A DNA stretch of 64,000 bases from Mesorhizobium sp. (GTDB lineage Bacteria; Pseudomonadota; Alphaproteobacteria; Rhizobiales; Rhizobiaceae). The translations under genes were made by a program, and so were the position numbers. Positions 76-15,922 of the stretch are shown here, piece by piece (the stretch's first letter is position 1; each line of letters starts with the position of its first letter). The notes beneath the pieces were generated by a model, which saw only the letters and a list, made by a program, of their open reading frames with translations, was not told the origin of the DNA and searched no databases. The stretch spans positions 1 to 64,000 of the forward strand of contig SAKE01000004.1 in assembly GCA_004017275.1 (NCBI GenBank). The letters are read 5' to 3'.

Positions 76-1497
76 CTATCCCTGCCACACTCCCTCTTTC
101 CTCAAATCATCCATCGTCCGCGAAATGCCTTCGCACAAAATGCCGACCATGTCGTCGATCTGCTCGCGCGTAATCACCAGCGGCGGCGACATCACGCACA
201 TATTGATCAGCGGCCGGACCAACAGGCCGAGTTCATGGCAATGGGCGTCGATGCGTTTACCCACATCCTTGTCGAGCTGCAGCGGATCCTTGCTTTCGCG
301 GTCCGCGACGCATTCGACGCAGCCCATCAACCCCATCCCGCGCACTTCGCCGACCAGCGGCAGTTCTTCAAGCGTCTTCAGCTGTGCCTGGAAATAGGGC
401 GCGACCGCCTGCGTGTGGGCAAGCACGTCCTCTTCCAGAAGATCGAGGTTTTTCAGCGCCACGGCGCAGCCGACGGGATGGCTGGTGTAAGTCAGGCCGT
501 GGCCGAACATCGCGTCGGGATGGTTCGACCGGCGCAACTCTTCCAGCAGCCGGTCGGAGATGATGACGCCGCCGAGCGGGAAATAGCCCGAGGTGACGCC
601 CTTAGCGAAGGTGATCATATCCGGATCGATGCCGAACATTTCGCCTGATGCAAAGACATGGCCGAGCCGGCCGAAGGCCGTCACCACCTCGTCGGATACA
701 TAGAGGATGTCGTTGTCGCGGCAGATCTCACGGATACGCTTGAGGTAGCCGTCGGGCGGCACCACGACGCCGCCGGACGCCTGTACCGGCTCGCCGACGA
801 AGGCGCCAATCCGCTCGGCGCCGACACGGGCGACCGTGTCGCGGAATTGATCGACGAGAAAATCGGTGAAGGCGGCAAGGCTCATGCCGCGCGGGCGACG
901 GAATGGATCGGGCGACGACAGCTTGATCACCAGCTCGTCGGCGCCGTCCATCCAGTCGCGGTCGCGCGGTCGGCCGTTGAGCGAGGCCGAAAGATAGGTC
1001 GAGCCGTGATAGGCGCCGCCGCGGCTCAGGATCAGCTTCTTCTCCGGCCGGCCGCGCACATTGTTGTAGAACTGCATGAAGCGCAGCGCCGTCTCGACGG
1101 CAGAGGAGCCGCCCGTGGTGTAGAAGACATGGCTGAGATCGCCCGGCGCATGGCCGGCGATGCGCTTTGCGAGTTCCGCCGACGGCGCGTTCATCGTGTA
1201 CCACGGCGTGTTGTAGGACAGCGCCATCGCCTGCTCGTACATCACCTTGGCGAGCTCCTCGCGGCGGTGGCCGACATTGACGCACCACATGCCGGCCGGC
1301 CCGTCGATCAGCCGCTTACCGGTGCCGTCGGTGATGTAGATGCCGTCGCCTTCGCCGATCAGCGCGCGCGCTTCCGCACCGACTGAGCCGGCGAATGGCC
1401 AGGGCTGGATCAGATGGCGCTTGGCCAGTTCGACGGCATCGTCGCCGGGTTCCGCGCCGGCTATCTCGGTCGCCTTCAGGTCTCTTGCCGCAGCCAT
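76..1497 (-). CDS. class III (PLP-dependent) aminotransferase
   Basis: Class III aminotransferase of 473 residues, the family of omega-amino acid:pyruvate and putrescine/taurine aminotransferases. It should move an amino group from an amine or omega-amino acid to pyruvate or 2-oxoglutarate using PLP in the cytoplasm. Visible: a glycine/serine PLP-phosphate segment (TTGGSSAVETA), the cofactor Asp in YVSDEVVTAFGR and the Schiff-base Lys in TFAKGVTSGY. I start at the second ATG because a GTGAGG ribosome site lies directly before it; an upstream in-frame ATG at 1518 would place that site inside the gene. It diverges from the polyamine-type ABC operon across a BetI-like operator, so the substrate is probably derived from the imported amine. 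The exact substrate is not readable. Confidence 0.9.
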   Translation of the reverse strand: MAAARDLKATEIAGAEPGDDAVELAKRHLIQPWPFAGSVGAEARALIGEGDGIYITDGTGKRLIDGPAGMWCVNVGHRREELAKVMYEQAMALSYNTPWYTMNAPSAELAKRIAGHAPGDLSHVFYTTGGSSAVETALRFMQFYNNVRGRPEKKLILSRGGAYHGSTYLSASLNGRPRDRDWMDGADELVIKLSSPDPFRRPRGMSLAAFTDFLVDQFRDTVARVGAERIGAFVGEPVQASGGVVVPPDGYLKRIREICRDNDILYVSDEVVTAFGRLGHVFASGEMFGIDPDMITFAKGVTSGYFPLGGVIISDRLLEELRRSNHPDAMFGHGLTYTSHPVGCAVALKNLDLLEEDVLAHTQAVAPYFQAQLKTLEELPLVGEVRGMGLMGCVECVADRESKDPLQLDKDVGKRIDAHCHELGLLVRPLINMCVMSPPLVITREQIDDMVGILCEGISRTMDDLRKEGVWQG

Positions 1498-1583
1498 CGT
1501 TGCCTCACATCGCTTCACAAATTTTCATCGGACACGAAATGACAGGCCCCGCGTTGGAAACAGTCGTTTTCTTCACTTCATTT

Positions 1584-1597
1584 TGAATGTCCGTTCA
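1584..1597. promoter_or_regulatory. BetI/TetR-type operator between divergent genes
   Basis: The 14-mer TGAATGTCCGTTCA is an inverted TGAA/TTCA pair embedded in TTGAATGTCCGTTCAATCA. It closely resembles the E. coli BetI box (TTGAACGTCCAATCA, from memory). The second site at 9787-9800 shares TGAATG-N3-GTTCA on the other strand. It sits between the aminotransferase and the ABC permease, so it could control both directions. Binding by the TetR protein at 8193-8903 is inferred. Confidence 0.7.
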
Positions 1598-1768
1598 ATC
1601 AATATTGCAGAATTGGCGCTTGATTTCAATCCAAGGATGCGCGCATGATGAAGAAAGCTGGCAAGGGGAACGAGCAGCCGGCACCAGCACAATGGGATGC
1701 CGCATGGCGGGACAGTCCAGGCCAGCAACCGAGATCGCGCCAGGAGCCCTGCCCCCCGGAGCTTGGCA

Positions 1769-2686
1769 ATGACGGCGGCGGCGGAAAGGTCGCCCCCGTT
1801 GCGCATGACGCGGGCCAGACGAAATGCCCTTCTGCAGTCCGAACCCGTTCAGGGTCTTGCCCTGATCAGCCCGACCTTCATCTACGCACTCATCCTTCTG
1901 GTGCTGCCGATCCTGGTGGTCATCGCGCATTCCTTCTGGACGCAGCACTATTTGACCATCGACCGTACCTTCACACTGGAAAACTACCGCGTCGCGCTGA
2001 CCGAGCCTATCTACCGTGATCTCCTGCGGCGCTCGCTCTACATTTCGCTGACGGTCAGCGTGCTCACCGTCCTTCTGGCCTACCCGATCGCATACTTCAT
2101 CTCCTTCCATGGCGGCCGCCACAAGAGCCTGTGGCTGTTCCTCATCACCATCCCGTTCTGGACCAGCTACCTGCTGCGGGTGATGTCGTGGAAGGTCATC
2201 CTCGGCTACAACGGCGTCTTGAATTCCGGCCTGATGGGCCTCGGCATCATCGACGAACCGTCGACCGCGCTGCTCTACAATTCGAGCGCCGTCATCATCA
2301 CGCTGACGCATGCCTGGGCGGCCTTCGCCATCCTGCCGATCTTCGTCTCGCTGGAAAAAGTCGACCGCACGCTGGTCGAGGCGGCCACCGATCTCGGCGA
2401 TGGTCCGCTGCGCTCGTTCCTGCGCGTGACCTTGCCGCTGTCTGCGCCTGGCGTTATCTCGGCGGCACTGATCGTCATGATCCCAACCGTCGGCGACTAC
2501 GTCACGCCGAAGCTGGTCGGCGGCAAGGACGGCGTCATGATCGCCAATGCCATCCAGGCGCAGTTCGGCAAGGCCTCCAACTGGCCGCTGGGTGCCGCCC
2601 TTTCCGTCACCACCATGCTGATCGTGACGCTGATGGCGGGCGCCACGGTGCTGATTATCCGCGCCTTGCAGAGGCTCGCACGGTGA
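1769..2686 (+). CDS. ABC transporter permease, PotB type
   Basis: Inner-membrane permease of about 305 residues from the spermidine/putrescine importer family. It has several hydrophobic segments and the EAA cytoplasmic loop (VEAATDLGDGPLRSFLRVTLP) that contacts the ATPase. The start at 1769 has a GGAG about nine bases upstream; a longer in-frame start at 1697 adds a poorly conserved leader. The stop overlaps the GTG of the next gene, showing translational coupling. It is first in a permease-permease-ATPase operon; the binding proteins are encoded on the other strand at 5889-8163. Polyamine-like or quaternary-amine cargo is inferred from family and neighbours. Confidence 0.9.
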   Translation: MTAAAERSPPLRMTRARRNALLQSEPVQGLALISPTFIYALILLVLPILVVIAHSFWTQHYLTIDRTFTLENYRVALTEPIYRDLLRRSLYISLTVSVLTVLLAYPIAYFISFHGGRHKSLWLFLITIPFWTSYLLRVMSWKVILGYNGVLNSGLMGLGIIDEPSTALLYNSSAVIITLTHAWAAFAILPIFVSLEKVDRTLVEAATDLGDGPLRSFLRVTLPLSAPGVISAALIVMIPTVGDYVTPKLVGGKDGVMIANAIQAQFGKASNWPLGAALSVTTMLIVTLMAGATVLIIRALQRLAR

Positions 2687-3507
2687 TTGCGGTGCGGCGT
2701 TTCCTGCCCGGCGGCTGGCTGGCGGCCTATGCGTTTCTCTACGTCGTCTTTCTCTACCTGCCAGTGATTTTCCTGCCGATCTTCTCGGTTAACACGGCGG
2801 CGACGCCGAAATTTCCGCTCACCGGATTCACCTTGCATTGGTATGAGGATTTGCCGCGCACGCCGGCCCTGCTCGACGCCGCCTGGAATAGCCTGATTGT
2901 CGGCGTGTCGGCCGCTGTCCTGTCCACCCTGCTTGGCATCCTCGCGGCCCGTTCGATCACCCGCTATCGCTATCCCGGTCGCAGCACCATCCACGGCCTG
3001 ATCATGGCGCCGCTGGTGCTGCCCGAGGTGATCGTCGCCATCTCCATGCTGTTGGTGATGCTGCAGCTTGGCCTCAGCCTGTCGCTGTTCACCGTCGTGC
3101 TCGGCCATGTGCTGGTCTGCATTCCCTATTCGATGACGGTGCTGACCTCCGGCTTCGAAGGTTTCGATCGCAGTCTGGAAGAGGCTTCCGCCGATCTCGG
3201 CGAGAGCGCCTTCGGCACCTTCCGGAGGGTGACGCTGCCGATGGTGGCGCCGGCCATCATCTCCAGCCTGCTGGTCTGCTTCACCATCTCGCTCGACGAG
3301 TTCATCATCGCCTTCTTCCTGACCGGGACCGAAGCGACGCTGCCGATCTACATCTGGGGCCAGCTACGCTTTGCAGCGAAATTGCCGGGCGTGCTGGCGC
3401 TGGGCACGTTGTTGCTGGTTGCCTCGTTCCTGCTGATGACCGTCGCTGAAATCCTGCGTCGCCGCGCGGCCAGGCGCACCCAGAACGAGGGAGGCCTCTA
3501 TGCCTGA
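2683..3507 (+). CDS. ABC transporter permease, PotC type
   Basis: Second permease subunit, 274 residues, partner of the PotB-like protein. An N-terminal membrane helix (AYAFLYVVFLYLPVIF) precedes a periplasmic segment, further helices and an EAA loop (LEEASADLGESAFGTFRRVTLP). The start is GTG at 2683, overlapping the previous TGA in the string GTGA, which fits tight coupling. The last eight bases overlap the ATPase gene. Length and layout match PotC-family permeases. Two different permeases imply a heterodimeric pore, as usual in this family. Confidence 0.9.
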   Translation: MIAVRRFLPGGWLAAYAFLYVVFLYLPVIFLPIFSVNTAATPKFPLTGFTLHWYEDLPRTPALLDAAWNSLIVGVSAAVLSTLLGILAARSITRYRYPGRSTIHGLIMAPLVLPEVIVAISMLLVMLQLGLSLSLFTVVLGHVLVCIPYSMTVLTSGFEGFDRSLEEASADLGESAFGTFRRVTLPMVAPAIISSLLVCFTISLDEFIIAFFLTGTEATLPIYIWGQLRFAAKLPGVLALGTLLLVASFLLMTVAEILRRRAARRTQNEGGLYA

Positions 3508-4618
3508 GCAGCCCCAAATCTTGCGCCCCCAATCCGACCGATCCATGATCGAGATCGAGAACGTTACCCGCAGCTACGGGGCGTTCAAGGCGCTCGACGA
3601 CGCCTCCTTGACCATCCGGGAAGGCGAGTTCTTCTCGTTGCTCGGCCCGTCCGGCTGCGGCAAGACCACGCTGCTGCGCATGATCGCCGGCTTCGACAAT
3701 CCGACCAGCGGTTCGATCTCTGTCGGCGGTCAGCCGATGGAAGGCATCCCCGCCAACCGCCGGCCGACCAACATGGTGTTCCAGAGCTATGCGATCTTCC
3801 CGCATCTCAATGTCGAGCAGAACGTTGCCTATGGGCTGAAGCGGTTGAGGTTGCAGGGCGGCGAGGAAAAACGCCGCGTCGAGGAGGCGCTGGCGCAGGT
3901 CTCGCTGACCGGCCTCGGCAAGCGCCTGGCGACAGAACTTTCTGGCGGCCAGCGGCAGCGCGTGGCGCTCGCCCGCGCGCTGGTCATGCGGCCCAAGGTG
4001 CTGCTGCTCGACGAACCATTGTCGGCGCTCGACAAGAAACTGCGCGAGCAGATGCAGGTCGAACTGCGCCGCCTGCAGCAGGCGGTCGGCATCACCTTCG
4101 TGCTCGTCACCCACGACCAGTATGAGGCGCTCGCCATGTCCGACCGCATCGCCGTGATGTTCGGTGGCAAGATCGCGCAGGTGGCCTCGCCCAAGGAGAT
4201 TTACCAGCGGCCGGTCACCCGCCAGGTCGCTGACTTTCTCGGCGGCATGAACTTCGTCAAGGCACAGATCGTCGAGGAGAACGGCGCATCGCTGGTCGTC
4301 GACACGCTTGGCTTCGGCCGGATCAAGACCGACAAGCCCAAGGCTTTCGTGCGCAATGGTGGCGGCACCACGCTCGGCATAAGACCGGAGCGCCTGCGTG
4401 TGCTTTGGGACAATGCGACGGCCAAGTTCGAGGTCGCCGGCAAGGTCGTCGAACGCCACTATTTCGGCGAGATCACCCATCTGATCGTCGAGATACCTGG
4501 CCTGGAAAAGCCACTGTCGGTGACCGAAACCAACGATTTCGGCGCCGACGACATTCCGGTCGGCACCTCGATCCGCCTCGCCTACGATCCCGAGGCTTTG
4601 GTGGCGATGGCCGACTGA
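3500..4618 (+). CDS. ABC transporter ATP-binding protein, PotA type
   Basis: ATPase subunit of the importer, 372 residues. Walker A is GPSGCGKTT, the Q-loop lies in MVFQSYAIFPH, the signature is LSGGQRQR, Walker B is VLLLDEP and the switch histidine is in LVTHDQ. The C-terminal part of about 120 residues is the TOBE-type regulatory domain of PotA/MalK-like ATPases. The ribosome site GAGGG sits before the ATG, inside the end of the upstream gene; an internal ATG at 3545 would be a shorter alternative. The 3' end overlaps the convergent amine oxidase gene by 37 bp. Confidence 0.93.
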   Translation: MPEQPQILRPQSDRSMIEIENVTRSYGAFKALDDASLTIREGEFFSLLGPSGCGKTTLLRMIAGFDNPTSGSISVGGQPMEGIPANRRPTNMVFQSYAIFPHLNVEQNVAYGLKRLRLQGGEEKRRVEEALAQVSLTGLGKRLATELSGGQRQRVALARALVMRPKVLLLDEPLSALDKKLREQMQVELRRLQQAVGITFVLVTHDQYEALAMSDRIAVMFGGKIAQVASPKEIYQRPVTRQVADFLGGMNFVKAQIVEENGASLVVDTLGFGRIKTDKPKAFVRNGGGTTLGIRPERLRVLWDNATAKFEVAGKVVERHYFGEITHLIVEIPGLEKPLSVTETNDFGADDIPVGTSIRLAYDPEALVAMAD

Positions 4619-5892
4619 AGCTCCGCGATGATCTTGCGCGCGGCGATGCGACCGGCAACGATCGCGCCTTCGACATAGCCGGGAAATGACGGCGACAGTT
4701 CCGATGCCGCAAAATAGAGCAATGGTGCGCCGGCCAAAATCCTGCGCTCGGCATCCGTCGCCGTCACGTCGACAATGAGGTCGCTGTAAGCGCCACCGCT
4801 CCAGCGGTCTCGCGTCCAGTCGCGATGACTGAAATCAATGATAGCGGCGGCTTCCAGACCAAGCGCATCCACCAGCCTTGCCTTCACCTCGGCGAGCAAC
4901 GCGGCATCGCTGAATTCTCGCCAGCGGAGCGCCAATGGCCCGCCGATGAAGACGACAAGCGCAGCATGGTCGGCATCCTTGCTGGCGTCGCAGGCAAACA
5001 GGCCCGGCACGTCGCGCCACATCAGCATGCCGCTCAGACCGCGTTCGCGCCAGAAGGGTTTGGGGTAGCGCACCAGCAACTTGATCACCGCACCGCTGTC
5101 CCAGATGTCAAGCGCCTTGGCGAGCGTTGCCGGCAAGGCGGGGGAGAAATCGAGCCTGGAGGCCGTCGCCGGAGGCAGGGCAATCAGCGCCGCGCGTGCT
5201 TCGATGACGTCGTTGGCCGAGACGGCGCGAACGCCATACGGTCCATGTTCGACGCGCGTGACCGGTTCGGCCAGCCTTACCCAGTCGCCGAGATCACCGG
5301 CCAGGTCTTCGGCCAGCGATTGCATCGTCTCGCCCAGGAAATATTGCAGCTCCGGGACCTCATTGGTGATGCGCCGGTCATTGTCGATCAGATGCCAGAG
5401 AGGCACCTTTTCCAACGCCAGGCACCACAGACCCTCGATCATCGAACGGAAGGCCGCCTTGGCATCGGCCGTGTCGTGCTGGCAGGCGAGCCAGTCGGCA
5501 ACGGTCAGTCCGGCAATCGAGGCATCGTCCGGAACGATCTCGTTCATGCGCTCGCGGATTGCCATCGCGGCATGGTAGGTCCGCCCGGCCTGTTGTGCGG
5601 ACATCGCCGGATGGGTGATGAAATCGCCGTCGAGATAGGTTTCCACCAATGTCTTGCCGCGCGCCGCGACCAGCGCCATCAATTCCGGCATGTCCTCGCA
5701 CAGGAACTGGCCGCCGCTATCGATGCGTTCGCCAAGCCCGTTCTGCCGAGACTCGACGCGTCCGCCGACGCGGTCGCGTGCTTCTAGCAGGACGAGATCG
5801 ATGCCGGCCTTCTTCAGCTCAAGCGCTGCCGACAGGCCGGTGAAGCCTGCGCCGACGATGACGACTTCAGTCCTTTCAGGGTCGCTCTTCAA
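4582..5892 (-). CDS. flavin monoamine oxidase family protein
   Basis: FAD-dependent amine oxidase of 436 residues. The N-terminal dinucleotide fold carries VVIVGAGFTGLSAALELKKAG and the GG-doublet DRVGGRVES; the C-terminal FAD segment includes YFAASELSPSFPGYVEGAIVAG. The family oxidises primary, secondary or polyamines to imines with H2O2 release. The start is TTG, overlapping the stop of the upstream binding-protein gene in TTGA, so it is translationally coupled to it, and a potential AAGG site lies seven bases upstream. Its place after two PotD-like proteins suggests that it oxidises the imported amine. The substrate is not determinable from sequence. Confidence 0.9.
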   Translation of the reverse strand: MKSDPERTEVVIVGAGFTGLSAALELKKAGIDLVLLEARDRVGGRVESRQNGLGERIDSGGQFLCEDMPELMALVAARGKTLVETYLDGDFITHPAMSAQQAGRTYHAAMAIRERMNEIVPDDASIAGLTVADWLACQHDTADAKAAFRSMIEGLWCLALEKVPLWHLIDNDRRITNEVPELQYFLGETMQSLAEDLAGDLGDWVRLAEPVTRVEHGPYGVRAVSANDVIEARAALIALPPATASRLDFSPALPATLAKALDIWDSGAVIKLLVRYPKPFWRERGLSGMLMWRDVPGLFACDASKDADHAALVVFIGGPLALRWREFSDAALLAEVKARLVDALGLEAAAIIDFSHRDWTRDRWSGGAYSDLIVDVTATDAERRILAGAPLLYFAASELSPSFPGYVEGAIVAGRIAARKIIAELQSAIATKASGS

Positions 5893-6968
5893 TAGCCGGC
5901 CTTGATCTTCTCGAACTCGGCGACCATGCGCTGCTTAAGTTCCGGCGCCACCGGCTGCTGGAACAGCGTCTTGTCGAGAAACTTGTCGAGATTGTCGAAG
6001 CCGCGATCGACCAGCACGGTGTGGTCGATATCAGCCATGCCCGCGCCATTGCCATGGCCATAGCCGAAGGTCTTGACCACGTAGTCCGAGACGGCGGGTG
6101 CATTGACGGCGCTGAGGAAATCATAGGCTTCATCGAGCTTGCCAGGTGCGTCCTTCATCAGCACATAGCCGCACACCCAGGTCGAAATGCCTTCCCTGGT
6201 GTCGCGGTTCATGGCGATCGGCATGCCTTGCCCTTTGAGCGTGACAAAGGTTTCGTTCCAACCCCAGACTAGATCGACCTCATTGCCGATAAAAGCCTGA
6301 TTGAGGTCGGTGTCATCGGTCCAGTAGAAGCGGATGTTCTTGTGCACATCACGCAGGAAGGCGGACGCCTCCTGGAATTGCGCGTCGGTCATCTTGGTCC
6401 AGTCCTTCAGCCCGATGACCAGGCTCGCCAGCGCGTAGGCGTCGTCGACATTGTCGCCGATGGTGACGCGACCCTTGAATTTCGGATCGGCGAAAATCCT
6501 CAGTGATTGCGCCTGTTCAGCAGACACCTTGTCGGTGCGGTAGAGCAGCGAGGTGTTGCCCCAGTCGAACGGCATGAACCAGGCTTTGCCGTCTGCGGTG
6601 ACGGCGAGATCCTTCATCGCCATGATGCCGGGATTGAGGTCCTTCCAGCCTGATATCCTGGAGGTGTCGAGCGGCTGCAGCATGCCGGCCTCGCGCCACT
6701 TGACCACGCTTTGCGAGCAGGGGTGCGCGATATCAGCCTTGAAGCCCGCCCGCATCTTCTCGAAGGCTTCGTCCTCGTCGCCGAAGAAAGCGAAGGTCGG
6801 CTCGGCGCCATATTTGGCGGTGTAGGCGGGATGCAGCAACGGATCCTCGTAGCCCGACCAGTCGAACACGACGAGGTCGCCGCCGCCTTCGGCGAAGGCA
6901 TGGACCGCACCGGCGCCGATCATGCACGCGGCGGCAAGGGCAAGGCGGCGTAGCAATGACTTCATCAC
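5889..6968 (-). CDS. PotD-like extracellular solute-binding protein (copy 2)
   Basis: Periplasmic binding protein of 359 residues in the spermidine/putrescine-binding family. It has a Sec signal peptide of about 26 residues with a hydrophobic core (LALAAACMIGAGAVHAF). It is clearly paralogous to the neighbour at 7081-8163: both share GDEDEAFEKMRAGFKAD-like and HPCSQSVVKWREAG segments and end in AEFEKIKAGY. A GGGGGAG ribosome site lies before the ATG. It is separated from the upstream copy by 112 bp containing a strong hairpin, and its stop overlaps the amine oxidase start. It presumably feeds the permeases at 1769-3507. Confidence 0.9.
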   Translation of the reverse strand: MMKSLLRRLALAAACMIGAGAVHAFAEGGGDLVVFDWSGYEDPLLHPAYTAKYGAEPTFAFFGDEDEAFEKMRAGFKADIAHPCSQSVVKWREAGMLQPLDTSRISGWKDLNPGIMAMKDLAVTADGKAWFMPFDWGNTSLLYRTDKVSAEQAQSLRIFADPKFKGRVTIGDNVDDAYALASLVIGLKDWTKMTDAQFQEASAFLRDVHKNIRFYWTDDTDLNQAFIGNEVDLVWGWNETFVTLKGQGMPIAMNRDTREGISTWVCGYVLMKDAPGKLDEAYDFLSAVNAPAVSDYVVKTFGYGHGNGAGMADIDHTVLVDRGFDNLDKFLDKTLFQQPVAPELKQRMVAEFEKIKAGY

Positions 6969-7080: not shown

Positions 7081-8163
7081 TCAGTACCCGGCTTTGATCT
7101 TCTCGAACTCGGCGATCATCTTGAGCTTAAGGTCGGACGGCACCGGCGACTGGAACAGCGTCTTGTCGACGAATTTCTGCACGTCGTCATAGCCTTTTTC
7201 CTTCAGCACCGCCTGATCGACGCCGGCCATGCCCTTGGCATTGGCCTGGCCATAGCCCCAGTCCTTGACCAGCACCTTGGCGGTCTCCGGATCGTTGACG
7301 GCGTTCAGGTAGTCGTAAGCCTTGTCGATATTGCCGGGCGCGTCCTTGAACAGCACATAGCCGCAGACCCAGGTCGAGATGCCTTCGTCGGTGTCCTTCT
7401 TCGCCATGATCGGTACGCCGGCGGCGACCGACTGCACGGTGGCGTCATTCCAGGCCCAGGCGAGATCGACCTCGCCGCCGCTCAGCAGCTGCACCACGTC
7501 GGTGGTGTCGGTCCAGTAGGAGCGCACGTTCTTGTGTACCTGGCGCAGGAAATCGGATGCCTGCTTGAACTGGTCGTCGGTCATCTTGGTCCAGTCCTTG
7601 AGGCCGATGGCAAGGCTTGCCAGCGCGTAGGCGTCGTCGACATTGTCGCCGATCGACACCCTGCCCTTGAATTTGGGATCGGCAAAAGCCTTCAGCGATT
7701 GCACGTCCTTGGCGTCGATCTTGGAGGTGTTGTAGGTGAGCTGGGTGTTGCCCCAGTCCCAGGGCATGAACCACGCCTTGCCGTCCGGCGTGGTCGCAAG
7801 ATCCTTCATCGCCATAATGCCGGGATTGAGGTCTTTCCAGCCCGTGATCTTCGATGTGTCCAGCGGCTGCAGCAGGCCGGCCTCGCGCCATTTCACCACG
7901 CTTTGCGAGCAGGGGTGGCCGAGATCGGCCTTGAAGCCGGAGCGCACCTTCTCGAACGCCTCGTCCTCGTCGCCGAAGAAGGCGAAGGTCGGTGAGTCGC
8001 CGTTCTTCTCGACATATTTCGGGTGGAAGCTCGGGTCCTCATAGCCAGACCAGTCGAACACGATCAGGTTCTTGTCGGCGGCGACCGCAAGTGCGGCGGC
8101 CGAAGCCGCCAGCGCACCAGTCAGCGCCAGGGTCAATGTCAGGCGTCGGGTCAGTTTCTTCAT
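7081..8163 (-). CDS. PotD-like extracellular solute-binding protein (copy 1)
   Basis: Periplasmic binding protein of 360 residues with a Sec signal peptide (LTLALTGALAASAAALAVAA, cleavage near residue 28). The mature part matches the PotD-like family: VFDWSGYEDPSFH near the N terminus, then the conserved GRVSIGDNVDDAYALASL segment. It is preceded by AGAGGATGG as ribosome site, only 29 bp after the TetR regulator, so it is probably in the regulator's operon. The differences from its paralogue at 5889-6968 are spread along the protein, which suggests two related ligands or different affinities rather than a very recent duplication. Confidence 0.92.
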   Translation of the reverse strand: MKKLTRRLTLTLALTGALAASAAALAVAADKNLIVFDWSGYEDPSFHPKYVEKNGDSPTFAFFGDEDEAFEKVRSGFKADLGHPCSQSVVKWREAGLLQPLDTSKITGWKDLNPGIMAMKDLATTPDGKAWFMPWDWGNTQLTYNTSKIDAKDVQSLKAFADPKFKGRVSIGDNVDDAYALASLAIGLKDWTKMTDDQFKQASDFLRQVHKNVRSYWTDTTDVVQLLSGGEVDLAWAWNDATVQSVAAGVPIMAKKDTDEGISTWVCGYVLFKDAPGNIDKAYDYLNAVNDPETAKVLVKDWGYGQANAKGMAGVDQAVLKEKGYDDVQKFVDKTLFQSPVPSDLKLKMIAEFEKIKAGY

Positions 8164-8903: not shown

Positions 8904-8909
8904 CGCCGG

Positions 8910-9701
8910 CTATCCAACCGGCTTTCGACCGCGAAGATGAGTGGGACGGTGCTCACCACTGTCAAGCACCTTCTGCATGGCTTCCCAGGTTCGTATGTTC
9001 TTGTCGACATAGGCTGCGCCAACCGCGGCCGCGGCCATCGGATAGAGCGGTCCTTTCAGCCTTTCGAGTTCGCCGCGCGCAACGTCGCGGTACCATGGGT
9101 TTCGGTCCCTGACGGTGACATCGGCAAAGCCGGCGCTACGCATCGCCTGCGCGTAGCGCGACGGCGACGCCATGGCGAAGGACAGCCCTTCCGCCGCGAT
9201 ATAGGCTTTCATCTCGGGCGACGGTTCGCCGTCATGCGAGATCATCCAGTTGGAGGCGGCAAAGACGCCGTCTGGCCTGAGCACCCGGAAGATTTCGGCA
9301 AACAGCGCGTCCTTGTCAGGCACATGCAGCAGCGCATCCTTGGAGAAGACGACATCGAAGGCGCCATCAGCGAAAGGCAGCGGTCCCGGTGGCGCCTGGA
9401 TGAAGCTGGCGCGGTCCGCGAGCCCTCGCGCAGCGGCTCGCTGCCTCGCCGTTTCGATCACCGGCTGTTCGACATCGAAGCCGGTGGCGTGGGCGGCACC
9501 GCGCTCGACCAGATGCAGCGTGATGCCGCCGCAGCCGCAGCCGATGTCGAGGATCGTCTTGCCCTCGAGCGACAGCCCTTCGACCACCCGGTCGACTTCG
9601 TCCGGACCACCCGGCGACAGATAGCCATCGCCCCATAGCGCCTCGAGGAAGCGGATTGCGGTATCGTCATACTCCGGCTCGGCATCTGCCCTTTCGATCA
9701 T
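8910..9701 (-). CDS. SAM-dependent methyltransferase, phosphoethanolamine N-methyltransferase-like
   Basis: Class I methyltransferase of about 263 residues. Motif I is [10 protein letters not shown], the post-I acidic residue lies in TGFDVEQ, and [12 protein letters not shown] matches motif II. The layout around these motifs ([11 protein letters not shown] before motif [16 protein letters not shown] after it) resembles the plant phosphoethanolamine N-methyltransferase catalytic domain, so an amine N-methyltransferase is likely. The start at 9701 fits the conserved domain; a longer frame to 9797 would run through the BetI-like site and is unlikely. It is the first gene of the minus-strand operon with the regulator, binding proteins and amine oxidase. 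The substrate is unknown. Confidence 0.8.
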
Positions 9702-9786
9702 CGGATGTCGTCCCGTCAGCCGATTTGAGTACTTTCGAATGCCGGCAAAGCGTAATGCATAGATGAGAAAACGCAATACCATTTGT

Positions 9787-9800
9787 TGAACATTCATTCA
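9787..9800. promoter_or_regulatory. BetI/TetR-type operator
   Basis: TGAACATTCATTCA; its reverse complement TGAATGAATGTTCA matches the site at 1584-1597 at TGAATG-N3-GTTCA. It lies in the 278-bp divergent region between the methyltransferase-led operon and the FAD oxidoreductase operon, so it could control both. Recognition by the adjacent BetI-like protein is inferred. Confidence 0.65.
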
Positions 9801-9888
9801 GTATGGCTGGACAAAACGGCCGCCCTCATGCCAAATTCTGCGCATTCGGGAACAGGCCACGCAAAAACGAAGAGCGGGTCGCACAGAG

Positions 9889-9963
9889 TAATTCCAGGAA
9901 AAGTGTGAGCGGTTTTCCCGGGAAAAGCGCGCAGCGCTTTCCCTAGGGAATTGCGTAGAAACA
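9889..9963. repeat. palindromic intergenic repeat in the 5' leader
   Basis: Composite palindrome: AATTCC...GGAATT outer arms, an inner perfect TTTTCCCGGGAAAA and a second hairpin AAAGCGCGCAGCGCTTT. It shares the AAAAGTG...GCGGTTTT core and the AGAAACAA end with the repeats at 25931, 37263 and 62685. It ends immediately before the AAGGAG ribosome site of the next gene, so it may fold in that mRNA leader. Confidence 0.6.
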
Positions 9964-9979
9964 AGGAGACTGGGCCAAA

Positions 9980-11599
9980 ATGAAAGCTTGGGATGCGATC
10001 ATCATAGGCGGCGGGCACAATGGCCTGGTCAACGCCTGCTACCTGCAGCGCGCCGGCCTTGAGGTGCTGGTGGTCGAGAAGAACGACTGGGTCGGCGGCG
10101 CCGCCACCAGCCGCGAGCTGACGCCGGGATTCCTCTACTCCAACTGCTCCTATGTCTGCTCGCTGTTTCGCCCCGAGATCATGCGCGATCTGGAACTGCC
10201 GCGCTTCGGCCTGCAGGTCATCTCCTACGAGGGCGGCGCGGTGTTCACCCGCGACGGCGACTATCTCGCCAATTACCGCGACCATGATGCCCACCGGCGC
10301 GAGTTCGCCCGATTCTCCAAGCGCGATGCCGAAGCCTATGACCGCTACGCCCGCGACGTGACGCGGCAGTGCCGCTTCATCCAGCCGCTGTTGATGCGCA
10401 CCGCGCCCGACCCCACCAGCCTGCGGCCGCGCGACCTCGGCGAACTGCTCTATCTCGGCAAGAAATTCGCCGGCCTGTCGGCTGAGGAAATGGCGCTGAC
10501 GCTGCGCTTCTGGACCATGTCGATCTCGGAGTTCCTCGACGAGTATTTCGAGACCGAGGTCATCAAGGCGAACTTCGCTCTGTCCGGCATCATCGGCACC
10601 GCGCTCGGACCGATGTCGCCAGGTACGGCCTACGTGCTTCTGCACCACTACATGGGCGAGGTCGACGGCTCGGTCGGCGCCTGGGGGTATGCGCGCGGCG
10701 GCATGGGCGCCGTCACCAAGGCTCTGGCCGCGTCCTTCAAGGCCTCCGGCGGCACCATCCGAACCGGTGCCGAGGTCGACCATGTGCTCGTCCGGCGCGG
10801 CAAGGCCAAAGGCGTGGTGCTGGCCGGCGGCGAGGAGATTTACGGCAAGCTCGTCGTCTCCAACGCCGACGTGAAGCGCACCTTCCTGAAGCTGGTCGAG
10901 GAAAAGGAACTACCCGACATCTTCCTGCGTCGGGTCAAGAACTTCAAGATCCGAGGCTCCTCCGGCAAGGTCAACATCGCGCTCGATTCGCTGCCGGAAT
11001 TCCCGGCGCTGCCGAAGGATTCGCCGGTCTATCGCGGCGACATGCATTTCACCGATTCGATGGAGCGCATGGAGCGCGCCTATGACGACTGGAAGGCCGG
11101 GCGCTGGTCGGCCGACCCGTTCCTCGACATGGTCATCCCGACGACGCTCGACCCGACCATGGCGCCCCCCGGCAAGCATTTCATGAGCTGCTTCGTGCAA
11201 TACGCCCCGCCCAAGATCGGCGGTCGCGAATGGACCGATGCCGATCGCGACGGCTTTGCCGAAAGCGTGATTGCGCAGATCGCGGAATACTCGCCTGGCT
11301 TCCGCGACCGCATCGTCCACATGGAGGTGCGCACCCCACGCGAGATCGAGGCCGAGGTCGGCCTCACCGAAGGCAACATCTTCCAGGGCGAACTGACCTT
11401 CGACCAGCTTCTGTTCAACCGCCCGGTGCCGGGCTACGCGCAGTACCGCTCACCGGTAGGCGGCCTCTATATGTGCGGCTCCTCGACTCACCCTGGCGGC
11501 GGCGTGATGGGCGCACCCGGCCGCAATGCCGCGGCTGAGATTCTGCGCGATCTCGCCAAATCCACCTCGCATATGAGCCCGGCCCATGACGTCATTTGA
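9980..11599 (+). CDS. FAD-dependent oxidoreductase, phytoene dehydrogenase/PYROXD2-like (first of pair)
   Basis: Flavoprotein of 539 residues in the phytoene-dehydrogenase-like family (COG1233). The FAD fold is at the N terminus (IIIGGGHNGLVNACYLQRAG, then VGGAATSRELTPGF), and the C-terminal FAD segment is MCGSSTHPGGGVMGAPGRNAA. No carotenoid genes are nearby, so carotenoid desaturation is unlikely; the layout is closer to PYROXD2-type proteins, for which amine-linked roles have been suggested. The ribosome site is AAGGAG. It overlaps its paralogue by 14 bp, so the two are probably made together. Oxidation of a C-N bond is inferred from context only. Confidence 0.82.
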   Translation: MKAWDAIIIGGGHNGLVNACYLQRAGLEVLVVEKNDWVGGAATSRELTPGFLYSNCSYVCSLFRPEIMRDLELPRFGLQVISYEGGAVFTRDGDYLANYRDHDAHRREFARFSKRDAEAYDRYARDVTRQCRFIQPLLMRTAPDPTSLRPRDLGELLYLGKKFAGLSAEEMALTLRFWTMSISEFLDEYFETEVIKANFALSGIIGTALGPMSPGTAYVLLHHYMGEVDGSVGAWGYARGGMGAVTKALAASFKASGGTIRTGAEVDHVLVRRGKAKGVVLAGGEEIYGKLVVSNADVKRTFLKLVEEKELPDIFLRRVKNFKIRGSSGKVNIALDSLPEFPALPKDSPVYRGDMHFTDSMERMERAYDDWKAGRWSADPFLDMVIPTTLDPTMAPPGKHFMSCFVQYAPPKIGGREWTDADRDGFAESVIAQIAEYSPGFRDRIVHMEVRTPREIEAEVGLTEGNIFQGELTFDQLLFNRPVPGYAQYRSPVGGLYMCGSSTHPGGGVMGAPGRNAAAEILRDLAKSTSHMSPAHDVI

Positions 11600-13151
11600 T
11601 GCAATCGTCGTTGGCGGCGGCCACAATGGCCTCGTCGCTGCTGCCACGCTGGCCAAAGCCGGCCGCAAGGTGCTGCTGCTGGAAGCCGGAAGCAAAGTCG
11701 GCGGCGCCGCGCGCACCGAAGAATTCGCACCCGGCTTTCGCGTCTCCTCGGTCGCCCATCTGCTGAACCGGCTGCATCCCGATGTGGTGAAGACGCTGGA
11801 GCTTGAGAAGCACGGGCTAAGAGTCGCGCGCGCCGACTTCATGCCGTCGGTGGCTTTGTCGAAAGACGGCGCGCCGCTTGTCCTGGATGGCACCTATGGC
11901 GAGGTGCTGACTGGAGCCAGTTCGTCCGAGCAATGCGCCTGGAAAGAGTTGCGCGCGCAGTTGCTGCGCTATGCCGGCATCCTGAAGCCGTTCCTGTCCC
12001 GCCGGCCACCCGATCTCGCCGGCATGTCGCTGCTGGAAGCAGCTTCACTCGGTCAGACCGCGCTGGCGTTGAAGAAGCTTGGCAAGGAAGACATGCGCGA
12101 CTTCTTGCGCGTGCTGTTGATGAACGTTGCCGACCTGCTCGACGAACAGCTTGCCGATATCAGGCTGAAGGGCCTGCTCGCCTTCGACGCGACGCTGGGC
12201 AGTCACCTCGGCCCGCGCTCGCCGACCTCATTGCTCGGCCTCTACTACCGGCTGGCCGGCGAGGCCGGTGGTACGGCCGGCGCGCAAGTCCTGCCGCAAG
12301 GCGGCATGGGCGCGGTCGTCGCCACCATCCGCGCTTCGGCTGAAAAGGCTGGCGTCGAAATCCGCACATCGGCGCCCGTAGCAAAAATCATCGTCGAGAA
12401 AGGTCGCGCTGTCGGTGTCGCGCTCGACAATGGCGAGGTGCTGCGCGCCAACACGATAGTCTCCGCCATCAACCCGGCGACGACTTTCCTCGACCTTGTC
12501 GGACCGCGCGAGATCGACACCGGCTTCGTGCGCAAGGTAAAAAACATCCGCATGAAGGGCGATGCGGCCAAGCTCAATCTGGCGCTTGACCGGTCGCCGC
12601 AATTCACCGACGTCGATGCGGCCGGCCACAAGGGCCGGCTGGTCATCGCCCCCTCGCCCGATCACGTCGAGCGCGCCTTCAACCCGTCCAAATATGGAGA
12701 GTTCTCGCCCGAGCCGGTGATGGAGATCACGCTGCCAAGCCTCGCCGACCCGTCGCTCGCGCCCGCCGGCGCCTGCGTGCTGTCGGCGGTCGTGCAATAC
12801 GCACCTTATGCCCTGAAAGAGGGCTGGGATGCCGGCAAGCCGAAATTCCTCAAGGCGATCATGGCTCAGCTCGAGTCTCACGCGCCTGGGATCGGCAAGA
12901 GCGTGGTGCACACCGAGCTTCTGACGCCGGCCGACATCGAAACGCGCTACCGCATGCCGGGCGGCCACTGGCACCACGGCGAATTGCAGGCCGACCAGAT
13001 GCTGGTCTCGCGCCCCGTCTCCGGCTGGTCGGGCTACGACACGCCGCTTGAAGGGCTGTTCCTGGCTGGCGCCGGCTCGCATCCCGGCGGCGGCGTCTCC
13101 GGCGCACCTGGCCTCAACGCCGCGCGGCGCATTATCGCGATAAAGGGGTGA
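11586..13151 (+). CDS. FAD-dependent oxidoreductase, phytoene dehydrogenase/PYROXD2-like (second of pair)
   Basis: Paralogue of the preceding flavoprotein, 521 residues, with the same GGGHNGLVAAATLAKAG FAD motif, VGGAARTEEFAPGF and a C-terminal AGAGSHPGGGVSGAPGLNAA segment. The start lies inside the upstream gene (14-bp overlap). The two proteins differ throughout, so they are probably distinct subunits or act on successive intermediates. A large palindrome follows before the demethylase-like gene. The substrate cannot be read from the sequence. Confidence 0.82.
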   Translation: MTSFDAIVVGGGHNGLVAAATLAKAGRKVLLLEAGSKVGGAARTEEFAPGFRVSSVAHLLNRLHPDVVKTLELEKHGLRVARADFMPSVALSKDGAPLVLDGTYGEVLTGASSSEQCAWKELRAQLLRYAGILKPFLSRRPPDLAGMSLLEAASLGQTALALKKLGKEDMRDFLRVLLMNVADLLDEQLADIRLKGLLAFDATLGSHLGPRSPTSLLGLYYRLAGEAGGTAGAQVLPQGGMGAVVATIRASAEKAGVEIRTSAPVAKIIVEKGRAVGVALDNGEVLRANTIVSAINPATTFLDLVGPREIDTGFVRKVKNIRMKGDAAKLNLALDRSPQFTDVDAAGHKGRLVIAPSPDHVERAFNPSKYGEFSPEPVMEITLPSLADPSLAPAGACVLSAVVQYAPYALKEGWDAGKPKFLKAIMAQLESHAPGIGKSVVHTELLTPADIETRYRMPGGHWHHGELQADQMLVSRPVSGWSGYDTPLEGLFLAGAGSHPGGGVSGAPGLNAARRIIAIKG

Positions 13152-13189
13152 TGGAATGTTTCAGCCAGCCAACGCCGCACTCCAAGGCA

Positions 13190-13344
13190 CCCCCCTCTGT
13201 CCTGCCGGACATCTCCCCCTCTCGGGGGGAGATCGGCTGTCACCCACGCTTTCGCCAATCGTCGCCTTTGTAAGAAAATCGCCAGCATTCCCGCAAGCCG
13301 ATCTCCCCACTAGAGGGGGAGATGTCCGGCAGGACAGAGGGGGG
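13190..13344. repeat. large nested palindromic repeat (perfect 33-bp arms)
   Basis: Arms 13190-13222 and 13312-13344 are perfect reverse complements over 33 bp, starting CCCCCCTCTGTCCTGCCGGA on the left. A second inverted pair inside (GGGGAGATCGGCT near 13225, AGCCGATCTCCCC near 13296) makes a nested cruciform with a loop of about 58 bp. No transposase is present. It resembles rhizobial intergenic mosaic-type palindromes. It separates the oxidoreductase pair from the GcvT-like gene and could terminate or stabilise the transcript. Confidence 0.85.
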
Positions 13345-13361
13345 CGCGAAGGAACGCCATC

Positions 13362-14594
13362 ATGAATCAGCAATCCGCCACCAACCCATCAGGCCGCATC
13401 GCCGCGCAAAACCACTTCCGCACGTTGCGACTGGGCACACCGTTCCAGCCGCGCATCGATGCGCTGGCCAGAACCCGGGACTGGTACAATTGGGCCGGCT
13501 ACCGCGCCCCGCACTCACTGTGGGACGAGGAACTGGAATATTTCGCCATCCGCAGCCAGGCGGCGCTGTTCGACATTTCGCCGATGACCAAATACCGGAT
13601 CGAGGGACCGGACGCCGAAGCCTTGCTCAATCGCGTCACCTTGCACGACGTCACCAAGCTCAAGCCCGGTCGCGTCCATTACACCGCCTGGTGCGACGAC
13701 GAGGGCTTTGTCCTCGATGACGGTACGCTGTTCCGGCTGTCGCCGACACGCTTCCGGCTGTGCTCGCAGGAGCGGCATTTGCCTTGGCTGCTCGACAGCG
13801 CCGTTGGTTTCGATGTGATCGTTGAGGAAGAGACTGAGGCGGTGGCCGGCCTCGCCTTGCAAGGCCCGACCTCCTTTGCCGTGCTGCGCGATGCAGGCTT
13901 TGCCGGCGTCGAGAGGCTGAAAATATTCGACCTCGCCGACTTCCCGCATGATGGCGGCACCATCAGCATTTCGCGCACCGGCTTCACCGGTGATCTCGGC
14001 TACGAGCTGTTCGTCCCGGCCGGCAAGGCGCTGAGCCTGTGGGACCGGCTGATGACATCAGGCGAACTGCGCGGCATCCGCGCCATCGGCTACACCGCGC
14101 TCAACCGCGCCCGTCTCGAAGCCGGGCTGATCGTTGCCAATGCGGATTTTACAACCGCCGAGCACGCCATCCGCGCCGACCGCCTGCGCATGCCTGACGA
14201 GATCGGGCTCGGCTTCATGATCGATCTGGAAAAGGGCCATTTCAACGGCCGCCGCGCGATCCTTGAGGCGCGCGCCAAACGCAAGCTGCGCCACGTGCTG
14301 GTTGGGCTGGAGATCGAAGGCAACATCCCGGCGGAACACGCCATCGTCTACCACAAGAAAGCCCAGGAGGTCGGCCTGGTCAGCGCCGCCATGTGGTCGC
14401 CGATGGCCAAGCGCAACATCGCCATCGCCTCGCTGGCGCGGCCATACGGTGATACAATGGTCGAGGACCTCTGGGTCGAGATCTATGCCATGCGCGAGCT
14501 GCAGTATCAGAAGCTGATGAAGCGGGCCAAGGTGGTGGCGCGACCGTTCATCAAGCTCGACCGCCGCACCGCCAATCCACCGGCGGATTTCTGA
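13362..14594 (+). CDS. GcvT-family aminomethyltransferase (folate-dependent demethylase-like)
   Basis: Protein of 410 residues with the folate-binding GcvT fold and its C-terminal barrel. Family marks include ALFDISPMTKYRIEGPDAEALLNRV near the N terminus, RTGFTGDLGYELFVP in the middle and ARLEAGLIVANADF, where a catalytic acidic residue usually lies. Relatives move one-carbon units from N- or S-methyl groups to tetrahydrofolate (GcvT, dimethylglycine/sarcosine dehydrogenase C-terminal domains, DmdA). After two FAD oxidoreductases, an oxidase plus one-carbon acceptor pathway for an N-methylated compound is plausible. A small conserved-looking protein follows two bases later. Confidence 0.85.
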   Translation: MNQQSATNPSGRIAAQNHFRTLRLGTPFQPRIDALARTRDWYNWAGYRAPHSLWDEELEYFAIRSQAALFDISPMTKYRIEGPDAEALLNRVTLHDVTKLKPGRVHYTAWCDDEGFVLDDGTLFRLSPTRFRLCSQERHLPWLLDSAVGFDVIVEEETEAVAGLALQGPTSFAVLRDAGFAGVERLKIFDLADFPHDGGTISISRTGFTGDLGYELFVPAGKALSLWDRLMTSGELRGIRAIGYTALNRARLEAGLIVANADFTTAEHAIRADRLRMPDEIGLGFMIDLEKGHFNGRRAILEARAKRKLRHVLVGLEIEGNIPAEHAIVYHKKAQEVGLVSAAMWSPMAKRNIAIASLARPYGDTMVEDLWVEIYAMRELQYQKLMKRAKVVARPFIKLDRRTANPPADF

Positions 14595-14596
14595 CC

Positions 14597-14857
14597 ATGA
14601 CCGACGAAGCCGACAGACTGGATGGAGACGAGGAAGCCGCCGAGCAGTGGGAGCTGGTCAACACGCCGCTCGGCGAAAAATGGTCGGGCCGCACGCGCTA
14701 TGCCGCCGCCATGTTCTTCTACAAGCGCGACGAGATGACCTCCGAAACGCTCGAGATCTACCGCATCTGCGCGCGGCTCGATTCCGAAAATCCCCTGCCC
14801 ATCATCCGCGATCGCGGCGTCGGCAAGGACTGGCTGGAGCGCATGGGCTTCCGATAG
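14597..14857 (+). CDS. small uncharacterised protein downstream of the GcvT-like gene
   Basis: Acidic 86-residue protein without signal peptide or membrane segment; I do not recognise the family. The N terminus is Asp/Glu rich, and the rest is a compact segment with several aromatic and charged residues (YAAAMFFYKRDEMTSE, DWLERMGF). The ATG lies two bases after the upstream stop, so expression is coupled to the demethylase-like enzyme. It could be an accessory subunit; no catalytic motif is visible. Confidence 0.75.
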   Translation: MTDEADRLDGDEEAAEQWELVNTPLGEKWSGRTRYAAAMFFYKRDEMTSETLEIYRICARLDSENPLPIIRDRGVGKDWLERMGFR

Positions 14858-14863
14858 GCCGTT

Positions 14864-15922
14864 CTAACCTATCGTTTTCTCGAGCACATTGAGCCAATTG
14901 CGATAAGCGATCTTCTCGATCAGCGCGCGGCCGAAACCACGTGCCGCCAAGGCATCGATCAGCTTCGGCAGACCGGCGACATCGCCGATGACGGCCGGGA
15001 TCATGGCGCCGTCGAAATCCGAGCCGAGGCCGACGCCATCTTCGCCCAGCGCCTGCAGCAGCGAATCGACATGGCGCACCATGATGTCGAGGCTGGTGTC
15101 GGCGTTCATGCGCCCGTCCTCGCGCAGGAAGCCGGTTGCGAAGTTCAGTCCGACCATGCCGCCTGACTCGCGGATCGCGCCGAGCTGCCAGTCGGTGAGA
15201 TTACGCGAATGGCCGCAGATCGCATGCACGTTGGAATGGGTGGCGATCAGCGGCGCATCGCTGAGCGCGGCGACATCGCGAAAACCCTTCTCGTTGAGAT
15301 GCGAGAGGTCGATCATGATGTTCAGCTGGTTGCAGGCCTTGACCAGCGCCTTGCCTGCATCGGTCAGCCCGGGTCCGGTGTCGGGCGAGGACGGAAAGCG
15401 GAACGGCACGCCGTGGCCGAATGCATTCGGCCGGCTCCAGACGATGCCGAGCGAGCGCAAGCCGGCTTCATGCAATACGTCGAGCATGGTGAGCTCTGGA
15501 TCGATCGCCTCGACCCCTTCGATATGGAACACCGCCGCGATCGAACCCTGCGCCATCGCATTGCGCACATCGCCGGCGCTGCGGCAGACGGTAAGCGCTC
15601 CGGCCCGTTCCAGTCGGAACAGGATCGAGGCCATCGCGATCGTCGAGGTCAGCGCATCATTGCGCGGAACCTCGGGGGGCAACGGCTCGGCAGCGCTGGG
15701 CGCCAGGGGCACGGCGCTGCGCCGCGATTTCTCGACAGGTGGCGGGAAGATGGCGAACATGCCACCGGCAAAGCCACCGGCTTTGGCACGCGGCAGGTCG
15801 ATATGGCCGCCCGATTTCCCCTCCATGAACAGCTTTTCGACGTCCGTGTCTTTCGACTGATAGAGTCTGAGCAGCGTATCGTTATGGCCGTCGAAGACGG
15901 GAACGAGGTCGGGTTCGGTCAT
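14864..15922 (-). CDS. membrane dipeptidase, peptidase M19 family
   Basis: Zinc-dependent dipeptidase-like enzyme of 352 residues. M19 motifs are present: FDGHNDTLLRL (metal ligands), the FHIEGVEAID glutamate, IDLSHLNEKGF, THSNVHAICGHSRN and GLGSDFDGA. There is no signal peptide, so it is probably cytoplasmic. It converges on the small protein gene with a six-base gap. An M19 dipeptidase also occurs in the Pseudomonas dimethylglycine-demethylase locus (from memory), so its role may be in one-carbon or amine catabolism rather than peptide turnover. No clear ribosome site precedes the ATG. Confidence 0.87.
   Translation of the reverse strand: MTEPDLVPVFDGHNDTLLRLYQSKDTDVEKLFMEGKSGGHIDLPRAKAGGFAGGMFAIFPPPVEKSRRSAVPLAPSAAEPLPPEVPRNDALTSTIAMASILFRLERAGALTVCRSAGDVRNAMAQGSIAAVFHIEGVEAIDPELTMLDVLHEAGLRSLGIVWSRPNAFGHGVPFRFPSSPDTGPGLTDAGKALVKACNQLNIMIDLSHLNEKGFRDVAALSDAPLIATHSNVHAICGHSRNLTDWQLGAIRESGGMVGLNFATGFLREDGRMNADTSLDIMVRHVDSLLQALGEDGVGLGSDFDGAMIPAVIGDVAGLPKLIDALAARGFGRALIEKIAYRNWLNVLEKTIG

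Follow-up and report, generated by a model that had tools for sequence, protein, structure and literature searches.

What does a bacterium do with a gene cluster in which a polyamine-type importer stands beside amine-oxidase-like flavoproteins, a methyltransferase and a folate-binding protein? The question is raised by positions 76 to 15,922 of a 64,000-nucleotide stretch of Mesorhizobium sp. DNA (GenBank assembly GCA_004017275.1, contig SAKE01000004.1), hereafter the window, which runs from position 1 to 64,000 and begins at the first base of its contig (C95). The source genome measures 6.58 Mb, and its closest named relatives are Mesorhizobium. We hold, with somewhat more confidence than doubt, that the cluster may encode a pathway for an N-methylated (quaternary) amine, which would be imported, oxidatively N-demethylated by a Rieske oxygenase and then by a trio of proteins working with tetrahydrofolate, and finally transaminated. 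A sequence-only reading of the window had already proposed import, oxidative N-demethylation with folate as the carbon acceptor and transamination; we keep this as the best inference, and the linkage to a Rieske gene described below strengthens it. The trio and the small gene that follows it are encoded as follows.

9980..11599, plus strand: FAD1, flavoprotein of the Amino_oxidase/CrtI superfamily, core trio (Pfam PF01593, 61.3 bits)
11586..13151, plus strand: FAD2, second flavoprotein, core trio (Pfam PF01593, 90.4 bits)
13362..14594, plus strand: GcvT-type folate-binding protein, core trio (GCV_T, 3.2e-56; GCV_T_C)
14597..14857, plus strand: helical protein of 86 amino acids (86-aa protein), accessory (394 homologues at E ≤ 1e-3)

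The core trio and its predicted chemistry

A search with a GcvT alignment found 80 cluster loci, and in 78 of these FAD1, FAD2, GcvT and the 86-aa gene followed one another in this order, the exceptions being a locus at a contig end (L102) and one without FAD1 (L078). This arrangement is not chance, and the outcome that the sequence-only reading had named as evidence against itself when proposing a synteny search, namely genes that are never adjacent, was not seen. In a wider sample of 16 loci, picked from a class-wide search of 385 genomes, 13 carried FAD1 at at least 54% identity, all with FAD1, FAD2 and GcvT together, while the other three carried FAD1-like proteins at 43–44% identity with neither FAD2 nor GcvT within the stretch. 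Counted within a 1.5 kb flank, and over the class-wide FAD1 matches that were given loci, FAD2 adjoined 17 of 17 matches at at least 54% identity versus 1 of 12 at 48% or less (p = 3.5e-7), and a phylum-wide search added 12 further loci with FAD1-like proteins at 40–43% identity and FAD2 beside none of them. A tree with three groups of 25 rows each separated FAD1 (100/100), FAD2 (100/100) and the single-copy relatives (97/88), and FAD2 lay alongside in every row of the FAD1 clade versus none of the 25 single-copy rows. The groups were read off by row identity (L162–L166 being Mesorhizobium FAD2 and L159 being FAD1), and some branches are long; L159, the one match at 48% or less with FAD2 beside it, falls in the FAD1 clade, which accounts for the exception. 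FAD1, FAD2 and GcvT are thus the fixed core trio of the cluster.

The 86-aa protein and an M19 dipeptidase had been counted among the pathway's parts, and this holds only as far as their presence goes. The 86-aa protein is found in all 80 GcvT-found loci; it has neither a Pfam nor an NCBIfam match, and its structure model has five helices (predicted local distance difference test, pLDDT, 80.5), with none of the 25 PDB matches listed reaching E ≤ 0.001. A match to it was not shown in L032 and L033 (E ≤ 1e-8), nor, at E ≤ 1e-6, in the loci of genomes G028 and G037 or in L179–L182, L184 and L186–L190; in L183, L185 and L194 a contig end cuts the position after GcvT. The dipeptidase occurs in 43 of the 80 loci. 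Both are lineage extras and do not belong to the core.

The two flavoproteins are 34% identical along their full length, and their reading frames share 14 bp. Both exceed the PF01593 cut-off of 19.8 bits and so belong to the flavin amine oxidase superfamily, a broad family that takes in CrtI-type proteins too. A profile alignment pairs K329 of FAD2 with a lysine in the cluster's own monoamine-oxidase-type enzyme (AO, listed below); in amine-oxidising members this lysine presumably lies near flavin N5. The alignment of FAD1 with AO stops before this position. K330 of FAD1 is a lysine in 44 of 44 sequences, and the FAD2 position is a lysine in 107 of 127. The GcvT protein reaches 192.3 bits for the GCV_T domain (cut-off 25.6), which places it with the T-protein folate domains; its best PDB match is the GcvT domain of trimethylamine N-oxide (TMAO) demethylase (1e-63), followed by bacterial T-proteins. 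Its D119-D120 pair, invariant in five aligned sequences, aligns with the DD pair of TMAO demethylase and of T-proteins, presumably the two Asp residues conserved at the folate site. The folate domain, together with the Glu motif of the Rieske protein and the binding-protein residues described below, is in keeping with oxidation of an amine by flavoproteins and transfer of the carbon to folate.

More specific identities did not hold for the trio. GcvT, a separate protein of 410 residues, scored 137 bits as the GcvT-fused alpha subunit of SoxBDAG (TIGR01372, cut-off 1164) and 242 bits as TMAO demethylase (NF053776, cut-off 1100), the latter over model positions 387–728 of 763 only, and FAD1 and FAD2 scored 138 and 111 bits as crtI_fam (cut-off 238). 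The source genome holds 19 GCV_T domain matches, 13 of them within open frames of 800–1056 amino acids, so that many folate-coupled demethylases are to be expected in it.

The single-copy relatives of FAD1 have neighbours of their own. They lie beside a Rieske gene in L167, L168, L177 and L214; in the last of these (8166–10958, Sphingobium TomTYG65 plasmid) the FAD1-like gene directly follows a Rieske gene whose product is 34% identical to that of the cluster, and GcvT is not annotated within the stretch shown. On a Shinella sumterensis plasmid (L195, 8991–15158) a gcvT gene comes immediately after the gene of a lone FAD1-like protein (42%), and genes for a beta-keto acid cleavage enzyme and a 3-hydroxyacyl-CoA dehydrogenase lie nearby; in L150 a single-copy relative is accompanied by a GcvT-like stretch on the opposite strand. 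The cases are few, and this recurrence of Rieske and GcvT neighbours hints at a link between the flavoprotein family and N-demethylation.

A Rieske oxygenase probably just beyond the window edge

The sequence-only reading had also argued from the apparent lack of any GbcAB or DgcAB relative. This argument fails because the window starts at contig base 1 and a Rieske gene ends near the end of another contig, C94. We found this gene by a search of the source genome, at C94:21227–22405, its product being 74% identical to a Shinella protein; the match ends 143 bases before the end of C94 (22,548 bases), and the aminotransferase gene of the cluster ends 75 bases from the start of C95. Seven Mesorhizobium relatives offered enough flanking sequence for comparison; the Rieske gene adjoins the aminotransferase gene in six of them, and in the seventh, L122, it lies about 3 kb off, separated by an insert with genes for a TetR regulator, an aldo/keto reductase and a short-chain dehydrogenase. 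Six loci were compared with the ends of C94 and C95: in five the two ends matched both sides of this junction, 40–206 bases apart, and in the sixth, L122, they matched the two sides of the insert. One or two annotated ring-hydroxylating (Rieske) oxygenases sit in the same cluster in four of four annotated relatives. On this synteny, a GbcA/CntA-type Rieske oxygenase appears to belong to the cluster, just to the left of the window.

The linkage extends beyond the source strain. Each of 50 genomes drawn from those of the 80 GcvT-found loci contained one Rieske match (E ≤ 1e-100, 67–98% identical), which lay on the same contig as GcvT in 48 and on a different contig in two (G701 and G717); the distance between the two genes ranged from about 7 to 31 kb among the 48, L050 and L080, with the genes on different contigs, being left out. 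As a genus control, 25 genomes were scored, of which 17 had both genes, none had GcvT alone, two had the Rieske gene alone and six had neither (Fisher p = 1.6e-4, without phylogenetic correction). Among 72,556 plasmid records, the same seven carry GcvT, the Rieske gene (at least 56% identity) and FAD1 (at least 63%).

The best PDB match of the Rieske protein was carnitine monooxygenase (CntA; about 118 bits), followed by 3vca (about 103 bits), which we take to be the stachydrine demethylase Stc2; these alignments cover the first 220 or so of 393 residues. A CxH...CxxH motif and an NEGYH....H motif were both present in 12 of 12 sequences, and the Glu of NEGYH aligned with an E in CntA and 3vca. 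A Glu at this bridging position before the iron histidines presumably marks the quaternary-ammonium group of Rieske oxygenases (CntA, Stc2, GbcA), and by this motif the protein falls within that group.

The putative imported compound and rival explanations

All genes listed by the sequence-only reading are present at 76–15,922, by Pfam and NCBIfam matches or, for PotB, by homology to related loci. Those beyond the trio, with one intergenic feature, are:

76..1518, minus strand: class III aminotransferase, AT (Aminotran_3, E = 7.5e-79; NCBIfam NF005447, 720 bits, cut-off 618)
1697..2686, plus strand: PotB-type permease, open reading frame (ORF) as called (translation; homologues at the same place in related loci)
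2683..3507, plus strand: PotC-type permease (BPD_transp_1, 1.6e-15, in the longer ORF 2131–3507)
3500..4618, plus strand: PotA-type ATPase (ABC_tran, 2.6e-38; TOBE_2)
4582..5892, minus strand: AO, monoamine-oxidase-type flavin amine oxidase (Amino_oxidase, 1.9e-52)
5889..6968, minus strand: solute-binding protein SBP1 (SBP_bac_8, 4.5e-16)
7081..8163, minus strand: solute-binding protein SBP2 (best PDB match Lmo0810, 1e-23, then PotD, 3.3e-21)
8193..8903, minus strand: BetI-like TetR repressor (TetR_C_6, 1.3e-16)
8910..9797, minus strand: S-adenosylmethionine (SAM) methyltransferase resembling phosphoethanolamine N-methyltransferase (PEAMT) (Methyltransf_25, 7.7e-24)
13152..13361, no strand: palindromic-repeat stretch separating FAD2 from GcvT, outside the pathway (20-mer at 13200, plus, and 13315, minus)
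14864..15922, minus strand: M19 dipeptidase, lineage extra (Peptidase_M19, 1e-92)

On the plus strand, PotB, PotC and PotA are followed downstream by FAD1, FAD2, GcvT and the 86-aa gene; the minus strand carries the aminotransferase, a run from the methyltransferase through the BetI-like repressor, SBP2 and SBP1 to the amine oxidase, and the dipeptidase. The PotC-type permease scored 188 bits against the NCBIfam PotC model (cut-off 326), and its start is probably at 2683, judging by a 4-bp GTGA overlap with PotB. The 20-mer arm of the intergenic stretch has 104 genome-wide matches (at most one mismatch), frequently as opposed pairs about 115 bp apart, and the stretch resembles what we take to be a RIME-type intergenic element. 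To the right of the cluster, an ORF at 18112–19704 looks by eye like a member of the sulfatase/phosphonate monoester hydrolase family, and nothing ties it to the cluster.

Much of this inventory could be read as catabolism of a polyamine without N-methyl groups (putrescine, spermidine or an acylated polyamine), with the trio doing something else. We consider this unlikely, and the window's binding proteins speak against it. PotD presumably holds polyamines by four acids, E36, D168, E171 and D257; in 78 non-redundant SBP1/SBP2-type sequences these positions, mapped through an alignment of SBP2 with PotD, are G, N (77 of 78; one S), D and C, so that three of the four acids are lost, and SBP1 and SBP2 are altered at the same ligand positions. 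W38, Y41, W238 and W265 are kept in all 78, and such an aromatic box with one acid would suit one cationic, possibly quaternary, group over a polyamine. Four related loci (L032, L128, L131 and L179) have instead a PotF-like binding protein in which the acidic residues are kept; substrates in some lineages may therefore differ or be diamines, and the trio may serve several related amines. The likeness of AO to putrescine oxidase and to monoamine oxidase (MAO) B, both among its best PDB matches together with cyclohexylamine oxidase, also favours a polyamine (AO is present at at least 45% identity in 59 of the 80 loci, within the flank examined), as do relatives of the aminotransferase, which in two plasmid loci stand beside an ATP-binding cassette (ABC) importer and an aldehyde dehydrogenase, joined at one of the two loci by a histone-deacetylase-fold protein. 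These neighbours, which also count for the pathway proposed here, suggest a diamine or omega-amine skeleton. Degradation of a polyamine would nevertheless leave the GcvT protein and a Rieske oxygenase of the quaternary-ammonium type unexplained.

A second glycine betaine or choline route, with the Rieske protein as a GbcA variant and the trio in place of sarcosine oxidase, is in our view very unlikely. In the glycine betaine route (GbcAB, DgcAB, SoxBDAG) a Rieske oxygenase acts first and flavin demethylases follow, a GcvT domain passing the carbon to folate. The enzyme types of the cluster are ordered as in Gbc-Dgc-Sox, and the BetI-like repressor (128.3 bits against NF001978, cut-off 118; 126.8 against TIGR03384, cut-off 201.3) points the same way. 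Against the GbcA model (NCBIfam NF058607, cut-off 670), however, the Rieske protein on C94 scored 134.7 bits. That the cluster is something other than the standard betaine route can therefore still be maintained, on other ground than first offered: a much better GbcA candidate (519 bits, likewise under the cut-off) sits on another contig, C60, of the same genome. A class III aminotransferase, moreover, is not known to take part in breaking down betaine by that route.

An osmolyte cycle seems equally improbable, one in which the PEAMT-like enzyme makes an N-methylated compatible solute that the Rieske oxygenase and the trio dismantle. Methyltransferase genes occur in 68 of the 80 loci and are related to phosphoethanolamine N-methyltransferases, the best PDB match of the window's protein being phosphomethylethanolamine N-methyltransferase 2 (5wp5, 8.3e-37), but the presence of the ABC importer and the class III aminotransferase argues for a compound that is taken up and broken down, and the methyltransferase sits in a separate, divergent gene run. 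That FAD1 and FAD2 are CrtI/CrtO-like desaturases acting on an isoprenoid is hardly credible: CrtO is the best NCBIfam model for both, phytoene dehydrogenase is by sequence the nearest solved structure to FAD1, and many relatives among the matches listed are named 'phytoene desaturase family' or 'phytoene dehydrogenase-like', yet the two proteins reach 305 and 224 bits with the CrtO model, whose cut-off is 1000, and in the loci examined the FAD1 group is always coupled to GcvT and often to an amine-type importer.

The proposed N-demethylation pathway and its relatives

What is established is which genes the cluster holds, the families they belong to, the constancy of the trio and its linkage to the Rieske gene in close relatives; from this we infer every step of the proposed pathway. 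An N-methylated (quaternary) amine carrying, or giving rise to, a primary amine would be sensed by the BetI-like repressor and taken in by the Pot-type ABC importer with its two binding proteins. The Rieske oxygenase would use oxygen to remove the first methyl of the quaternary nitrogen; AO, or in some relatives an old yellow enzyme (OYE)/FadH-type flavoprotein, may perform a middle step. FAD1 and FAD2 would then oxidise the remaining N-methyl groups to the methylene level, from which GcvT would form 5,10-methylene-tetrahydrofolate, and the class III aminotransferase would finally convert the amine to an aldehyde.

Several observations weigh against this pathway, in addition to the PotF-like proteins mentioned above. 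The physical join of C94 and C95 in the source strain is a conclusion from synteny, and the outermost 54–79 bases of C95 and at least 58 of C94 did not align at the junction. Beyond the close relatives the Rieske gene is not a constant feature: a close Rieske gene was absent from 3 of 20 GcvT-bearing relatives (G028, G033 and G037, all outside the genus), the G028 stretch holding only a 32% Rieske fragment and the G037 stretch none, and of 13 trio loci from other families three (L179, L182 and L185) showed the gene, several of the remaining ones lying on short contigs. Conversely, in the one-contig Mesorhizobium genome G005 (L199, L202) PotABC, the aminotransferase and the Rieske gene are still present, but the genome has no such GcvT, and the locus shows neither FAD1 nor FAD2. 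No Rieske reductase was seen among the cluster genes scanned, although no search was aimed at one. The FAD2 lysine is replaced by arginine in 19 of the 127 sequences (and by valine in one), the structure model of FAD1 is too poor for use (mean pLDDT 54.8), and a methyltransferase inside a demethylation cluster is unexplained.

Related clusters offer clues to the substrate. An OYE/FadH-type flavoprotein occurs in L030, L033, L179 and L182, an MttB-type trimethylamine methyltransferase in L182, and acyl-CoA dehydrogenase or CoA-ligase genes in L130, L131 and L184; in L179 an aldehyde dehydrogenase sits between GcvT and the aminotransferase. A Leisingera sp. S132 plasmid locus found through the binding protein (L212, 4194–14973) has an SBP2 relative at 44% identity whose neighbours are an arginase-family enzyme, an OYE/FadH-type flavoprotein, a Rieske oxygenase and an MttB-type methyltransferase, with no annotated trio gene within 9 kb; it may handle the same kind of substrate as the cluster. 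Candidate substrates may be methylated lysines, omega-amino acid betaines and N-methylated diamines. When homarine, trigonelline and methyl-lysine catabolism were weighed, no cluster-specific evidence was found in the open-licence literature, nor was a description of the cluster found in the titles and abstract starts of open-licence PMC papers among the matches listed.

The logic of a Rieske oxygenase, flavin demethylases and folate is already known from the betaine pathway; what sets the cluster apart from it are the enzymes that would carry out the folate-coupled step, and the transamination at the end. Both have a Rieske oxygenase for a quaternary nitrogen, flavin demethylases and GcvT-folate transfer; the cluster has a different Rieske subfamily, a separate GcvT and, where the Sox subunits stand, two flavoproteins of the group named for CrtI and PYROXD2. 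Sarcosine oxidase, dimethylglycine dehydrogenase and TMAO demethylase have the folate-binding GcvT domain in common with the cluster, fused in these enzymes and stand-alone here, where the flavoproteins are two chains of another family. CntA and Stc2, the nearest solved Rieske oxygenases, share the E..H....H iron motif with the cluster's protein and have different neighbour genes. The importer has the fold and gene order of PotABCD and PotFGHI, and differs from PotD at the binding-protein positions given above.

FAD1 and FAD2 were described from sequence as PYROXD2-like. Their presumed kinship to human PYROXD2 is one of database name: UniRef names starting with 'Pyridine nucleotide-d' (cut off at this point) were given to 2 of the best 120 of 7,999 flavoprotein homologues. 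None of these 120 is eukaryotic, because all are at least 86% identical. Human PYROXD2 is a single protein with no known GcvT partner. The link between PYROXD2 and methylamines, brought up in the sequence-only reading, is in print, and extends to methyl-lysines, in passages of four papers (PMC3169529, PMC9730628, PMC13352909, PMC7878905). These passages associate PYROXD2 variants with urinary trimethylamine and plasma dimethylamine (PMC3169529), with N6-methyl- and N6,N6-dimethyl-lysine (PMC9730628) and, in a rare-variant test whose signal was gone after conditioning on common variants, with urinary N6,N6-dimethyl-lysine (PMC7878905), and also with the odds of missing N2-acetyl-N6,N6-dimethyl-lysine values (PMC13352909). 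A passage from 2011 calls the role of PYROXD2 relatively uncharacterized, and one from 2026 names only a part in mitochondrial function. We suggest tentatively, and with more doubt than conviction, that FAD1, FAD2 and GcvT form a new class of folate-coupled N-demethylase, with two PYROXD2-type flavoproteins and a free GcvT, and that human PYROXD2 likewise oxidises N-methyl groups of lysine-like or other amines. The linkage in bacteria with a folate T-protein and an oxygenase of the quaternary-amine type gives an independent reason to test the family for N-methylamine oxidation.

If the proposed pathway is correct, it would be an N-demethylation route parallel to the betaine pathway, and it would give a role to a group of 'phytoene desaturase-like' proteins of Alphaproteobacteria. 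The ligand of the binding protein would identify the substrate, and the cluster would provide a tractable bacterial system for the PYROXD2 family.

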